Origin: Myxococcales bacterium
GTDB lineage: Bacteria; Myxococcota_A; Polyangia; Polyangiales; SLQV01
NCBI GenBank assembly: GCA_007124745.1
Contig: SLEO01000151.1
Location: 1 to 47,718 of the forward strand
Length of the DNA: 47,718 nt
Direction: 5' to 3'
Made by a program: the position numbers and the translations under genes. How positions within the stretch are numbered: the stretch's first letter is position 1; every line of letters starts with the position of its first letter. The notes beneath the pieces are model-generated. The model saw nothing but the letters and a program-made list of their open reading frames with translations, was not told the DNA's origin and searched no databases. This document shows positions 1 to 29,514 of this stretch, piece by piece.

Positions 1-145
1 AAGCGAACACTCGGCAACAACGAGCAAGTGGGCGCTGGGACCCCACGCGCAGCTTTGGGCCACCTAGGGGCAGGGGGGGACCGGCCTGCGGGATTGACTC
101 CCGACAACCCGGGGGCATTTTGTAACATGCACCCCCTCACGATCC

Positions 146-289
146 GAGCCATCCCCAGGTTGAGCCTGGGGGACGAAAGCCGCGGGAAAATGGGCCTTCC
201 GTGCGCGGACCCACCCACCCCACCGTACTTACTCCAGGCCCATTTCCCCGCGGCTTTCTGCGTCTCGACTCCATGAGGGGATCGCTCAG
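146..289. repeat. Dispersed nested inverted-repeat element, copy 1 (MITE/REP-like or structured RNA)
   Basis: Aligned without gaps to 15707-15850 with about 9 mismatches. Inner arms 176-197 (AAAGCCGCGGGAAAATGGGCCT) and 236-257 (AGGCCCATTTCCCCGCGGCTTT), one mismatch. Terminal segments CCGAGCCATCCCC / GGGGATCGCTCAG are imperfect inverted repeats. Confidence 0.9.
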
Positions 290-11180: not shown

Positions 11181-13856
11181 TTAAGTATGCGACGCGCTAA
11201 GCCCTTCGAGCGCCCCCTTCCGGGATGGGGAACGCCCACGCCTGGTTGGAAAAAGCAAACGCAGCAGCAAGGGCAAGTAGACCAGCGTGGCACACAGACA
11301 CGTGACGACCGTCACACCGACAAGCTCACCAAACTCGCGGATGGGCGGAAAGGCGCTGAAGAGCAGCACGCCGAATCCTAATGCAAGGGCGAGGCTCGCC
11401 ACCGTTACTGCGTAGCCCGCGCGGGCCGCCGCTAGCACGAGCAGCCGCGACGAAAGACGCGGCCGCGCCTTCAGGTGCGGCGCAATGAAGGCCAGTAAAT
11501 GAATGCTCGCGTCGACGGCCAAACCAAAGCTCAGCGTAAAGATCATCGCCGTGGCAGCGCTTAGCTGTATGTCCCGAAACCCCATGTATCCGAAGGCCAC
11601 AACGAGCGGCGCCACACTCGTGGGCAGGGCCACCAGCGCCAGGCGCATCGAGCCAAAGGCGATACGCAGCAGCACCAAAATTGCCAGCAGCGCAAGACCC
11701 AAGCTGAGCGAAAGGTCCCCCACTAAAGTGCCAAGTGCGGAGGCAGCACTCGCGCCGCTGCCAAAGAGCGTCACCTCGACGTTCGTGCCCAGCGCGCTGG
11801 AGAGGTCAGCTTCGAGGGCGCGGGCCAGCAATGGTAGCCGTGCCACCGCTGACGAAGCGAGCCCGACTTCTACCAGCGCCGTGTCACCGGCCAAAGAGAT
11901 GCCGACCCGCGCGGGCTTCTGCGCTCTAATCACGTTGACCAGCGCCTGGAGTGCCTCCGACGATAGCGTTTCGAGCCCACCCGGACCGTTCGGCGACAGC
12001 CTCCGAAGCGCTTGCGCCAGGAGTGGCGTGGGCGCTTCCACAAAGCGCACGCCGGCTTCTGCGCTCAGCGCCGCCGACAGGACCGTATCGAGATTCTGAA
12101 GGTTGCTTGGTTGGTACCAGAATCGCGCCGGTGCTTGGATGGAAAACGTCGCTTGCTCCAAGCCAACCAGCTTGTCGTCGATCATGAGCGCCGCCTTGTA
12201 GGTGGGCGACGCTGGGTCGAGATGGGCCAACGGCGACGTGGTGCGCTCGACCGTCATCGCCGCTGGTATCGCGATAAACGCTGCCAGCAAGCCCAATACG
12301 AGCAGGCGGACGCGATGGCGGAGCACCCATTCGGTGAGCTGAGCGAGCCCGCGCCGCACTTGGCGACCCGTTCGCCGAGCCGCCAGTTTGCCGAGCGCCC
12401 AACGCGGCAGCAGCGCCAAGATGGCGGGCACGAGCGTCACGGACGCCAAGAAGGCGAGCCCTACGCCAAGCGCCCCAGCGAGCCCAAAGCCCCGGATGAC
12501 GTCATTGCGCGTCACGCAGAGCGCTAGCAAGCCCGCCATCGTCGTGGCGGAGGTGAGCAGGCAGGGCCGCAGCAGACGCCGCGCGGATTCGAAGGCGGCC
12601 GCATCCCGCGGCCAGCGCCGGCTCATAAGGCTTTGGCAGTGCAGCACAATATGCACGCCATCGCTCAGACCGATCACGACGATGAGTGCGGGCAACACAC
12701 TGGTAAGAACCGTTAGGCTGAGGCCGAACCAGCCCATCAGTCCAAAGGTGGCAAGCCCCGCCAGCGCCACCGCGAGCAGAGCGACAAGCGTCGGGACGAC
12801 CGCACGGAACGCGAGCGCCATGATCAACGCCGACACTAGAACGGTCAACGGCAACAGCGTCGTCTGGTCCTGCTCCATCGCGAGGACGATTTCCGTCCGC
12901 AGAGGCAGCAGCCCCGAAAGCTTCACGTCGGCCCCTTCCGGGCGGGGAACGGCCCGAATCGTCGCCTCGAGACTGGCGATAAGCGCGCCCCGAGCGGGCA
13001 GCTCGGTGGGCACTTCATGCAAAAACACCGCGACAGGCGCCGCGGTGCCGTCATCGCTGATGAGTCGCTGGTCGAAGTCGGCGCCACCAGCGAACGACGC
13101 TGCCATCTCCTCCGGGTCGGACACAGGTTCCCGCTCGCGGGCCGTGAAGTCGGGCAGACTAGCGAGTCCATATTCGAAATGGTCGCCCGCCTGACGCACA
13201 AAGCTATCGAGGGCGCGCAATACCTCGCCAGGCATGCCGCCCGGTCCGGGCTCGAGCTTGAGGCTCGCCGCACCAGGTCCGCCAGACGCCGAAGACGACG
13301 CCGCGCTTCCCGGCGCCGCCGCTGCGCCGGCGCCAGGGCTCGGGTCCGAATCGTCGTCCGCCAACGCTTCCAGCGCATCGAGGTCGGGACCTTCGGGGGC
13401 CGCGCCCGCCGCCGGATCGCCCCCCCCCCCACGCTCGACCGCATCCACCCACGCAAGGCGCGGGAGCGTGACGAGACTATCGGCGGCGCGCACCTCTGAC
13501 CGCTCGGCGAGCGCTTGGGTCAACGTTTGCAAATAAGCGAGCCCCGGCGCCTCCCGCAAAGAAACCCCGGACACGAGCACGACCACATCGGGCCTCCGGT
13601 CTGGCCAATAACGCGTGGCAGATGCAGCAGCAGCCAGTGCAGCCTCGGATGCGACAAAGAGACGTTCGGGGGTCGGGTCCAGCTGCAACCGGCCAAGACC
13701 CGGAACCGCGACCGCAAGCAAGAGCAACCATGCGCCGAGGGCGGTCCAAGCCCAGCGACGCGGCCGCTCAGGGGACGGCCGTGACGGACGCTGGCGGTTG
13801 GGTTGCGCTCGATGTCTCACGTGAAGCGCCTTGGCTGCAACCGTCGCGGGCTGCAA
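11181..13856 (-). CDS. RND/MMPL-family exporter (hydrophobe/lipid exporter-like)
   Basis: About 890 aa, two TM clusters each followed by a periplasmic domain; GLSDGVHIVLH and FGLAVDASIHLLAF RND-type motifs. Confidence 0.85.
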   Translation of the reverse strand: MQPATVAAKALHVRHRAQPNRQRPSRPSPERPRRWAWTALGAWLLLLAVAVPGLGRLQLDPTPERLFVASEAALAAAASATRYWPDRRPDVVVLVSGVSLREAPGLAYLQTLTQALAERSEVRAADSLVTLPRLAWVDAVERGGGGDPAAGAAPEGPDLDALEALADDDSDPSPGAGAAAAPGSAASSSASGGPGAASLKLEPGPGGMPGEVLRALDSFVRQAGDHFEYGLASLPDFTAREREPVSDPEEMAASFAGGADFDQRLISDDGTAAPVAVFLHEVPTELPARGALIASLEATIRAVPRPEGADVKLSGLLPLRTEIVLAMEQDQTTLLPLTVLVSALIMALAFRAVVPTLVALLAVALAGLATFGLMGWFGLSLTVLTSVLPALIVVIGLSDGVHIVLHCQSLMSRRWPRDAAAFESARRLLRPCLLTSATTMAGLLALCVTRNDVIRGFGLAGALGVGLAFLASVTLVPAILALLPRWALGKLAARRTGRQVRRGLAQLTEWVLRHRVRLLVLGLLAAFIAIPAAMTVERTTSPLAHLDPASPTYKAALMIDDKLVGLEQATFSIQAPARFWYQPSNLQNLDTVLSAALSAEAGVRFVEAPTPLLAQALRRLSPNGPGGLETLSSEALQALVNVIRAQKPARVGISLAGDTALVEVGLASSAVARLPLLARALEADLSSALGTNVEVTLFGSGASAASALGTLVGDLSLSLGLALLAILVLLRIAFGSMRLALVALPTSVAPLVVAFGYMGFRDIQLSAATAMIFTLSFGLAVDASIHLLAFIAPHLKARPRLSSRLLVLAAARAGYAVTVASLALALGFGVLLFSAFPPIREFGELVGVTVVTCLCATLVYLPLLLRLLFPTRRGRSPSRKGALEGLSASHT

Positions 13857-13910
13857 GGTGACGCACCGCCAAGCTTGTGCGAAATTTGCGTGGTAGCGTG
13901 CGGTGGCAGC

Positions 13911-15626
13911 ATGAGTTCAGGCCGACAGATCCGCGGGCGGGCCGCGCGCTTTGCCGGCGGCACGCTGCTATCCCGTGTGACCGGCGCTGCGCGCGACATC
14001 GTCCTAGCGTCCTGTTTACCCACCTGGCTTTTCGACGTCTTCATCGTCGCGTTCACCATACCCAACACCCTGCGAACGCTTATCGCCGAGGGTGCAACTT
14101 CCAGCGCGATTGTGCCGCTCTACGCCGCTATCGATCCAAGTGACCGGGCTGCTCGCGCGGACTTTCTCCGGCGCGCGCTGGGTTTTGTGGTCAGCATCGC
14201 GGCACTGTCGAGCCTCTTGCTTCTCTTCGGCGCCGGGCTGCTGATCAATCTCTACGCGCCCGGGCTCAGCGACGCGTCTCGTGAGCAAGCTGTCGTCTTT
14301 GTCCGCGCCTTCGGGCCTTATGTCATCCTCCTGGCCTGGACCGCGGCGCTCCAGGGCGTTCTCACCGCAGAGCACCGCCTGGGCCTTGTCGGTGCTCTGC
14401 CGGGCCTGCTCAACTTGGGGCTTATCGCCGGCGCTGTCGCAAGCCTCAGCCCGGAGCTGAGCGCCACCTGGACCCTCACGGCGGGGCTTTACGGCGCGGC
14501 CCTAGTGCAGCTCATCGCCTCGGCTCGGGCGCTCAGGCATCTAGGCAAGTCACTTTGGCCCACGCTCCGCCGCTGGGACGCCCTCAGCGGGCAAATGATG
14601 GGCCTACTCGGCCCTACCCTTGTGCTGAGTGCCGTCTACCAGGCGCAGGTCCTGTTGACACGCGCTTACGCTTCCTATGCTGGGCTCGGCGCGCAGACGT
14701 ACCTCTACCTGGGGCAGCGCCTGATAGAAGTCCCTCTCGCACTCGTGGCCGCCTCCCTCTCCACCGCACTGCTTCCGGAACTGAGCCGCAGCGCTGCTGC
14801 GGAAGGGGGCGGTCACCCTGCTTCACAAGGGCGTGCAGACGGCCAGAAGGCTGCACCCACAACGACAAACGACACGAACGCGCGCTCAGATTCGGAAGTG
14901 CGCAACTCAGACCGGGGCGGCACGCCGAAAGACGCGCTAGCAGACGTGGAAGCCATCGACGCCTCCCGCACATCAGAGGGCCATGGCAAGCACCATCTCT
15001 TGGGGTCATCGCTGAGAGGCGGGCTTTTCCTGGTGTGGCCCGTGGTACTGGTACTGTGTCTCTGCGGCTACGAGATAGCGGACCTTCTCTTTGGCCGGGG
15101 CGAGTTCAGTGCCAAAGACAGTGCCGCGACCGCGGCCTCCTTGCGTATCCAAGCCCTAGGGCTCTTGCCCGCTTTCTCCGCCCGCCTGCTCACGCCCGTC
15201 TTCTACGCGCGCAAGCGCCCAAGCTTGCTCGCCTATGCGACGGTCCTGCAGCTCGTCGCCTACGCTGCCTGCGGCGCACCGCTACTTCGCAGCCACGGCC
15301 ACGTGGGCCTCGCACTGGCATCGACGCTCGCCTTGCTCGTGTATGCCGTCACGCTCGCAGCCGTCGCCTGCCGTCTCGACAAAACACTAGCCGCTGCCCT
15401 CCGCGCTCAAACCCTGCCGTTGCTGAAGCAACTCACCGCAGTATCGCTGGCGGCGGGCATGGCGCTGCTCGCGCTACCCTGCCTCGCCCCGTGGCCAGGC
15501 TGGGCACGCCTGGGAGCCGTCAGCCTCGGCGCCAGCAGCCTCTACCTCGTTGTCATCGTCGCACTTGACACCGAGCTGCGCGCGGCGCTTCAGCGCCTGC
15601 TGACGCGCGCCCAAGTCGGCGCCTAG
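13911..15626 (+). CDS. murJ: Lipid II flippase MurJ/MviN
   Basis: ATG at 13911; ARFAGGTLLSRVTGAARDIVLASCL, AFTIPNTLRTLIAEGATSSAIVPLY, many TM helices. ORF track starts at 13803. Confidence 0.92.
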   Translation: MSSGRQIRGRAARFAGGTLLSRVTGAARDIVLASCLPTWLFDVFIVAFTIPNTLRTLIAEGATSSAIVPLYAAIDPSDRAARADFLRRALGFVVSIAALSSLLLLFGAGLLINLYAPGLSDASREQAVVFVRAFGPYVILLAWTAALQGVLTAEHRLGLVGALPGLLNLGLIAGAVASLSPELSATWTLTAGLYGAALVQLIASARALRHLGKSLWPTLRRWDALSGQMMGLLGPTLVLSAVYQAQVLLTRAYASYAGLGAQTYLYLGQRLIEVPLALVAASLSTALLPELSRSAAAEGGGHPASQGRADGQKAAPTTTNDTNARSDSEVRNSDRGGTPKDALADVEAIDASRTSEGHGKHHLLGSSLRGGLFLVWPVVLVLCLCGYEIADLLFGRGEFSAKDSAATAASLRIQALGLLPAFSARLLTPVFYARKRPSLLAYATVLQLVAYAACGAPLLRSHGHVGLALASTLALLVYAVTLAAVACRLDKTLAAALRAQTLPLLKQLTAVSLAAGMALLALPCLAPWPGWARLGAVSLGASSLYLVVIVALDTELRAALQRLLTRAQVGA

Positions 15627-15641
15627 CCCTGTGCATGGGCG

Positions 15642-15668
15642 GAAGCGCGCTACCACCTGCCGCGCTTC
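15642..15668 (+). terminator. Putative terminator hairpin after murJ
   Basis: GAAGCGCG (15642-15649) and CGCGCTTC (15661-15668), 8-bp perfect stem just after the murJ stop; no clear U tract. Confidence 0.35.
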
Positions 15669-15706
15669 AAGACCTGCCACACGCCTAGGGCTGGGGGCTC
15701 GAAGCT

Positions 15707-15850
15707 GAGCCATCCCCAGGGTGAGCCTTGGGGACGAAAGCCGCGGGGAAATGGGCCTTCCGTGCGCGGACCCACCCACCCCACCATACTCACTCCAGGC
15801 CCATTTCCCCGCGGCTTTCTGCGTCTCGAGTTCATGAGGGGACAGCTCAG
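15707..15850. repeat. Dispersed nested inverted-repeat element, copy 2
   Basis: Aligned to 146-289. Inner arms 15737-15758 and 15797-15818 form a perfect 22-bp inverted repeat. Outer imperfect repeat CTGAGCCATCCCC / GGGGACAGCTCAG. Confidence 0.92.
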
Positions 15851-16011
15851 GGCTCGAAGAACGTATGGATAGCTCGCAACAAGAACCAAAGGCCGAAGCA
15901 AAGCGCAAGCGCATAGCCTCCGATGGCCAGAAGGGAATCGGAGACTGAGCCCCTTAGCCAGACCGGCCCGCTTTCCCGTACTAAGGTGCAACCTATGGCC
16001 AAGCCGAGCAC
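15847..16011 (-). CDS. Possible small membrane protein (~54 aa)
   Basis: C-terminal SDSLLAIGGYALALCFGLWFLLRAIHTFFEP looks like a TM helix. A GTG at 16011 could be the start. It slightly overlaps the engB start antisense, so this is speculative. Confidence 0.3.
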   Translation of the reverse strand: MLGLAIGCTLVRESGPVWLRGSVSDSLLAIGGYALALCFGLWFLLRAIHTFFEP

Positions 16012-16759
16012 ACCGCCCAAGCGCAGCCGCGCTGCCAAACCTGCGGCCCCGAAGCGGAACGACGCTAGCAAGCCCACGCCGCCAGCATCTCGGAGCAAAG
16101 ACCTCAACGTCGCGGACAGCCGCTTCGTCATCTCCGCCACCAACAACGCAGGGCTAGTCTCACTTGAAGCATTGCCGCAGATAGCGGTGGCGGGCGCATC
16201 TAACGTGGGCAAGTCGTCACTCTTGAACGCGCTGCTCGCGCGTAAGGGGCTCGTGCGGACTAGCAAGTCGCCGGGCTGCACCCGTCTCCTCAATGTCTTT
16301 GGCGTCACCTTCGGCACGCAGCCGCTCTACTTCGTGGACCTGCCTGGCTACGGCTACGCCGCCCGCTCGAAAAGCGAACGCCGAGAATGGGGGGAATCCA
16401 TCGATAGCTACCTTTCGGAAAGCGCCGAACTCGCCCTAGTCCTGATACTCGTAGACAGCCGCCGCGGCATCGGCCCCTTCGAAGACCAGCTCATCGACTG
16501 GCTCCAAACCCAAGCCCGCAGCATGGAGATAGTCGTCACCAAGCTAGACAAGCTCCCCAAAGCCAAACAAAAGCCCACCATGGCGGCCTTCAAAGCTGAG
16601 CTCAAAGCCCGCGCCGCCCCGATGGCCCTGAGCCCCATTCCAGTGGTGGGCACGTCCAGCGAGACCGGCGAAGGCATCCCCCACCTCCGCGACCGCTGCC
16701 TCCGCGCCGCCCTCACCCACCTCACCACCCCCGCACCGAAAGTCGTTACGAATGCATAA
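15995..16759 (+). CDS. engB: Ribosome biogenesis GTPase EngB/YihA
   Basis: P-loop VAGASNVGKSSLLNALL, SKSPGCTRLLNVF, YFVDLPGYGYA, VVTKLDKL. ATG at 15995 with upstream AAGGTG preferred over 15923. Confidence 0.93.
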   Translation: MAKPSTPPKRSRAAKPAAPKRNDASKPTPPASRSKDLNVADSRFVISATNNAGLVSLEALPQIAVAGASNVGKSSLLNALLARKGLVRTSKSPGCTRLLNVFGVTFGTQPLYFVDLPGYGYAARSKSERREWGESIDSYLSESAELALVLILVDSRRGIGPFEDQLIDWLQTQARSMEIVVTKLDKLPKAKQKPTMAAFKAELKARAAPMALSPIPVVGTSSETGEGIPHLRDRCLRAALTHLTTPAPKVVTNA

Positions 16760-29231: not shown

Positions 29232-29514
29232 TCAGAGTCTCCAACATAAGCAGCCTAAGTGCCATCTATCGCGCGTATCTGTTCCGGGGGCACTTTACAC
29301 GCATGCCCCCGAGTTTTCGGGCGTGAATCCCGCACGCCTCTCCCCCAAAAAACCAAAGCCGGCAAGTGGGTCCCAACCGCCCACGCGGCTCTTTCCCTCA
29401 GGGTTTTCGCTATCTGGACCCCCTGAACGCTTACTATCGCGCCGATGCGCATGAATACACCGCACCGTTCGCCCGCCGCTTCCGTCGCGCAGACGCGCGC
29501 GCTAGGTTTTCCTG

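Follow-up and report, generated by a model that had tools for sequence, protein, structure and literature searches.

The window analysed here, a stretch of 47,718 nucleotides from contig SLEO01000151.1 of a Myxococcales draft genome, carries two copies of a repeat that folds into a long hairpin. A sequence-only reading of the second copy had noted that the substitutions between the copies largely preserve the pairing, and had proposed either selection for, or recent spread of, a folded form, with a possible role at transcript 3' ends. The locus therefore raises the question of whether the hairpin works as RNA or is a mobile piece of DNA and, in the latter case, why its arms keep matching each other. 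Taken as a whole, the data are very probably best explained by a MITE with ends of the IS10 type, the arms of which have probably been rewritten by template switching.

Architecture of the folded repeat

The features of the two copies and of the genes that flank copy 2 are as follows.

15705–15850, plus strand (the direction in which the spacer reads TTCCGTGCGCGG...): whole MITE copy 2, 146 bp, ends CTGAGC...GCTCAG
15696–15704, no strand: left target-site duplication, 9 bp, GGCTCGAAG, exact copy at 15851–15859
15705–15717, plus strand: left terminal inverted repeat CTGAGCCATCCCC, with ends common to IS10/ISVsa5-group insertion sequences
15714–15733, plus strand: small hairpin CCCCAGGG-TGAG-CCTTGGGG, seen in sequence and fold, a feature of the young subfamily
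15736–15758, plus strand: left arm of the 23-bp inverted repeat, perfect match to the right arm, covarying
15759–15796, plus strand: spacer (loop), 38 bp, conserved; three further copies, and one of the relative, have it inverted
15797–15819, plus strand: right arm of the 23-bp inverted repeat, perfect reverse complement of the left arm, covarying
15838–15850, minus strand: right terminal inverted repeat (GGGGACAGCTCAG on the plus strand), ends seen across copies
15851–15859, no strand: right target-site duplication, 9 bp, GGCTCGAAG, exact copy of 15696–15704
144–289, plus strand: MITE copy 1, ends CCGAGC...GCTCAG, target duplication 135–143 / 290–298 with one mismatch
13803–15626, plus strand: murJ, upstream neighbour of copy 2 (PF03023, 1.3e-63)
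15923–16759, plus strand: GTPase gene (MMR_HSR1), downstream neighbour in tandem (PF01926, 1.4e-19)

Most of what had been read from the letters stands. The stems are kept in copy 2, with arms that pair perfectly over 23 bp instead of the 22 bp counted before; the small hairpin, with its one G-U pair, is present in both sequence and fold; the inner-stem mismatch of copy 1 (A.C at element pair 44/103) is a G-C pair in copy 2, and plus-strand murJ is its true upstream neighbour. The element had been placed at 15707–15850. Its right end is correct, but the start came two bases late and has to be moved to 15705, because the direct repeats GGCTCGAAG bound 15705–15850. Over the copies, the terminal inverted repeats CTGAGC.ATCCCC / GGGGAT.GCTCAG occupy element columns 1–13 and 134–146. 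The predicted fold of 15690–15870 reaches -97.2 kcal/mol (z -5.45), and none of 200 shuffled sequences was equally stable.

A mobile element found in one genus

The source draft genome (3,314,730 bases in 377 contigs, 83% complete, several contigs ending inside copies) contains the core 24-mer of the repeat at 110 places (54 in forward and 56 in reverse orientation), whereas the reversed control gave no match. We gathered 123 distinct copies from the collected loci, some of them out of the related genome. After dropping 41 that had no clear end or fewer than 12 bases of flank, 82 could be analysed, and 81 were aligned, L109 having been removed as misplaced. The three copies with an inverted spacer described below (L102, L126 and L142) were kept in the alignment, the tree and the covariation counts. 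Direct repeats of 9 bp flank the element exactly in 47 of the 82 copies and with at most one mismatch in 63, while all other repeat lengths from 4 to 13 gave a single exact case (k=8). The most frequent element length was 146 bp (48/82). Two copies of 158 bp were also seen, L055 (C197) and L151 (C277), the former with the spacer stretch ACTTACTCCAGG tandemly repeated. The recent spread that had been suggested is thus borne out: the folded repeat is mobile, has duplicated its target sites and is present in some 100 copies. It is almost certainly a MITE, the gene-less remnant of a transposon.

As far as searched, the family is confined to one Myxococcota genus. An order-wide search gave a match in 2 of 183 genomes, both from the genus of the source genome, and among the GTDB contigs, where the source genome is possibly absent, a 21-mer was found only in the MAG CSSed165cm_553, in 20 stretches. 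A phage or plasmid origin was discarded, the 21-mer being without exact match in IMG/VR and blastn without match in plasmid or phage records. Two sites occupied by the MITE in the source genome appear free of it in the relative; base-exact empty sites were not obtained there, the intergenic flanks being too diverged. Among published titles and abstract openings we found no description of the element.

Ends of the IS10 type and the transposase

The MITE ends CTGAGCSATCCCCTCA are those of insertion sequences of the IS10/ISVsa5 group (IS4 family), including some of Myxococcota with identical ends. A query of E. coli genomes with an IS10 end led to loci that carry the annotation "IS4-like element ISVsa5 family transposase". 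The E. coli IS10 ends are CTGAGAGATCCCCTCA, and the one element that was read out starts with CTGAGAGATCCCCTCATAATTT and has the 9-bp duplication AGCTTGGCC. With the ISVsa5 model NF033591 at E 1e-20, elements were detected in 22 of 377 Myxococcota genomes. Their ends are mostly CTGANNNATCCCCTCA, and the duplication was 9 bp wherever both ends were paired, a length that the script itself required. Two loci (L191 and L193) end exactly in CTGAGCCATCCCCTCA, as does the MITE in its older form, and two others (L180 and L200) have the deviating end CTCATGTATCCCCAG. Two marks of membership in the IS10/ISVsa5 group, the ends CTGANNNATCCCCTCA and the 9-bp duplication, were found in the MITE. The resemblance stops there, since the MITE has no transposase gene, an unrelated interior and only 146 bp, against about 1.1–1.6 kb in the insertion sequences read out from E. 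coli and Myxococcota, with which it shares the ends CTGAG..ATCCCCTCA and the 9-bp target duplications.

Judged by its length, a 146-bp element is too short to encode a DDE transposase and is, for this reason, a dependent derivative and not an insertion sequence. No transposase of the ISVsa5 type scored over the cut-off in the source genome or its one relative, both incomplete drafts, so that the element would depend on one that was lost, unassembled or unbinned. A cut-and-paste transposase acting in trans would have attached to the CTGAGCSATCCCC ends and integrated the element, duplicating 9 bp of the target, and the copies that survived would be the intergenic ones. We infer the action of this enzyme from the MITE itself, its gene having been found in neither genome of the genus. 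The ends are shared with autonomous elements only in other Myxococcota, the own genome having no such partner, and when the consensus was compared by BLAST with 28 loci that carry an IS, in search of the interior of the parent element, the ends alone matched. A partner in the same genome is usual for MITEs rather than required, and families with a lost or unknown partner are discussed in PMC3852290. The single PF01609 match of the source genome, a partial ORF at C326 with 20.6 bits (cut-off 23), is unconvincing as an IS10-type transposase, and NF033591 gives 16.6 bits at the same place, against a cut-off of 152. Its coordinates are G000:C326:5120-5386 (L081, L099), and the ORF looks like a partial DDE transposase under both the Pfam and the NCBIfam cut-offs.

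Other high-copy families, such as Correia/NEMIS, ERIC, Chunjie and QMITE2, have ends that differ from those of this MITE. Like it, they are MITEs in intergenic positions, with transcripts that would be expected to form stable folds, and processing by RNase III has been proposed for Correia/NEMIS (PMC10969869 and PMC2229807, the latter for RNase III). Closer in its family is the IS4-type MITE of Haloquadratum walsbyi, which measures 237 bp and has 34 copies, 17-bp ends and 5-bp repeats (PMC3852290). Both are short, gene-less and multi-copy, with ends from a known IS family; the myxobacterial one differs in its 9-bp duplications, in that the partner IS was not found, and in its internal arms of 23 bp, which covary and enclose a spacer that is inverted in some copies.

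Paired changes in the arms

Covariation across all genomic copies had been proposed as the check on the folded form, and it is present in the 23-bp arms. Among the 81 aligned copies, pair 37/110 is CG in 57, AT in 10 and TA in 4, pair 39/108 is GC in 51, CG in 12, TA in 2 and AT in 1, and pair 44/103 is GC in 49 and AT in 11. When all 10,153 column pairs were ranked by corrected mutual information, those of the arms came at positions 2, 8, 32, 59 and 89, with many unrelated pairs between them. Arm pairs being a minority of the top 40, family descent makes a strong background, and we have relied instead on counts over a tree with slid partners as control. With the arm columns left out of the tree, both partners changed on the same branch to a different Watson-Crick pair in 24 cases and to something else in 4. 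When the partners were slid by 1–10 columns in either direction, only 0–5 Watson-Crick double changes were counted, larger slides testing fewer pairs. The tree of all columns gave 17, again against 0–5. Most of the 24 fell on tips (21) and the rest on internal branches, on a tree that rests on about 100 columns and cannot time each change. The claim that substitutions preserve pairing thus holds for the arms but fails for the small hairpin, which has 7 bp or more in 47 of the 48 copies of the young type and is missing from 15 of the 30 others (the three inverted-spacer copies excluded).

Divergence is uneven along the element (78 of the 81 copies): 4.8% in the spacer, 3.3–6.0% in the ends, 4.8–7.6% over arms plus spacer and 13.6–15.3% in the subterminal parts. 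Conservation of the spacer thus comes close to that of the ends, a hint that the hairpin is under some constraint.

Inverted spacers and probable template switching

Template switching is described as homogenising the arms of inverted repeats and inverting the spacer between them (PMC8604942), and as creating compensatory changes in stems (PMC8794818). We therefore looked for copies with a flipped spacer. When spacer orientation was scored in the 85 copies with recognisable ends, 82 read as normal with a margin of 17.5 score units or more, and 3 as inverted (L102, L126 and L142), with a gain of 20–28 for the inverted reading, the next copy being at -17.5. In the relative, the spacer of L070 scored 61 as normal and 86 as inverted. 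A separate BLAST screen of spacers called 80 normal, 3 inverted and 1 tie (L249), 31 copies with short flanks being left unjudged; the three flagged were L070 and L234 and L252, which are the places of L102 and L142. The outer parts of the inverted-spacer copies are nearest to different normal copies, so that several independent inversion events are likely. The 9-bp target duplications have one mismatch in L142, two in L102 and four in L126, and by this match the outer ends of the first two come from one insertion each, a support that L126 does not have.

The replication machinery would, on this evidence, copy one arm off the other by template switching within the palindrome, and it would be mainly this, and not selection on an RNA hairpin, that leaves the arms complementary; the same process would occasionally flip the spacer. 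Template switching between the arms, at the level of DNA, is probably the best explanation for the covariation and the inverted spacers together. We lean towards regarding the family as a natural bacterial record of this process, in which arms were rewritten together repeatedly and the spacer was flipped.

Among the alternatives, the one that survives best is a requirement for the palindrome in transposition, for instance as a cruciform or as a site to which a protein binds, so that the masters with perfect arms would be the ones to multiply. The lower divergence of the hairpin core relative to the subterminal parts leaves room for such a need, the three double changes on internal branches agree with it, and the double changes in general could also stem from selection on transposing master copies. 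The prevalence of changes on tips goes against it, as do the insertion sequences with the same ends, which show no such palindrome in the part compared, their ends, and it does not by itself predict inverted spacers. We consider it unlikely. It is also quite improbable that the spacers were inverted by site-specific or homologous recombination between the arms, with no template switching at all. Inversion between inverted repeats is an expected product of either process, but recombination alone would not turn the mutation of one arm into the complement in the other, and 23 bp is short for homologous recombination.

Placement relative to genes and the RNA alternative

The remaining alternative is that the hairpin is under selection as RNA, as a terminator or mRNA stabiliser for the genes behind which it landed. 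The very stable fold and the paired changes of the arms would suit it, and so would part of the placement. We have examined 404 kb around copies, window included, with 70 copies of at least 100 bp placed, 4 of them at sequence edges; the genes were predicted with an in-house program based on codon usage (310 genes, 77% coding, with rough starts). None of 66 copies lies inside a predicted gene, compared to 81% of random control positions. The gaps that hold copies are convergent in 22 of the 66 cases, tandem in 34 and divergent in 10, whereas the control intergenic positions were convergent in 540 (15%), tandem in 2,085 and divergent in 1,016. Convergent gaps are therefore enriched (p = 0.0002) and divergent ones depleted (p = 0.025). 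This is compatible with a role at 3' ends, and equally with plain selection against damage to genes and promoters, the avoidance of which accounts for the placement.

Other data speak against RNA. Within tandem gene pairs the orientation of the MITE is even, 17 of 34 copies pointing the same way as the genes. A terminator scan of 15500–16100, covering loops of 3–8 only, gave no site, and the long-loop hairpin inspected by eye has the stem end TTTC followed by TGCGTC, with the T run absent. The minus-strand ORF at 15847–16317, which had been offered as a putative reading frame ending at the right edge of copy 2, is very probably not a gene, as it has no Pfam match and overlaps the plus-strand GTPase gene. 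Selection on a plus-strand RNA would leave G-U in excess of A-C among one-sided arm changes (the reverse for the minus strand), and the counts show no wobble preference: 38 G-U and 50 A-C in the raw data, 38 and 47 on the tree, where transversions, beyond rescue by any wobble, are the commonest class (62). This makes an RNA function doubtful. At least one arm pair is not Watson-Crick in 60 of the 81 copies, and half of those outside the young type have no small hairpin. We have therefore set aside the terminator, 3'-end or mRNA-stability role as the main reading, and judge selection on RNA to be decidedly improbable. Rfam 15 gave no match over the gathering score in the window, which speaks against a known RNA family there.

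We think that the covariation of the arms does not mean RNA function. The MITE is ordinary parasite DNA of a known kind. Its ends, of the IS10 type, are present at high copy in an uncultured myxobacterium for which the search gave no such transposase; it is the record of arm changes and inversions that merits a second look. If template switching is indeed the cause, strong "RNA covariation" can arise in a repeat without any RNA function, and palindromic repeats would give false positives in covariation tests. Discovery of structures by covariation seldom separates a mutational cause from selection. Copies of a palindrome within one genome, with paired changes free of wobble bias and with spacer inversions, would permit this separation.

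A second repeat family

A second dispersed, MITE-like family was seen in the window at 29275–29434 and elsewhere, e.g., at L206 3218-3372, L259 93-249 and L241 749-921. It has ends GTAAC/GCGTTCAGGGGG and 8-bp direct repeats, exact in 15 of 47 candidate pairs, with no exact case at 5–7 or 9–11. Its ends resemble those of the IS66 family; PF03050 had no match in the source genome and one of 54 positions in the relative. A seeming repeat of this family in the relative (L079 4705-4956) is at the site matching that of a MITE in the source genome (L256 1862-2006). The two families also nest. At the beginning of the window (1–143) and in L206, L226, L231, L241 and L242, MITEs of the IS10 type are found inside the second repeat, at the target GGTCCAGAT and variants of it, and at L241 2892-3008 one MITE end is replaced by an element of the second family.
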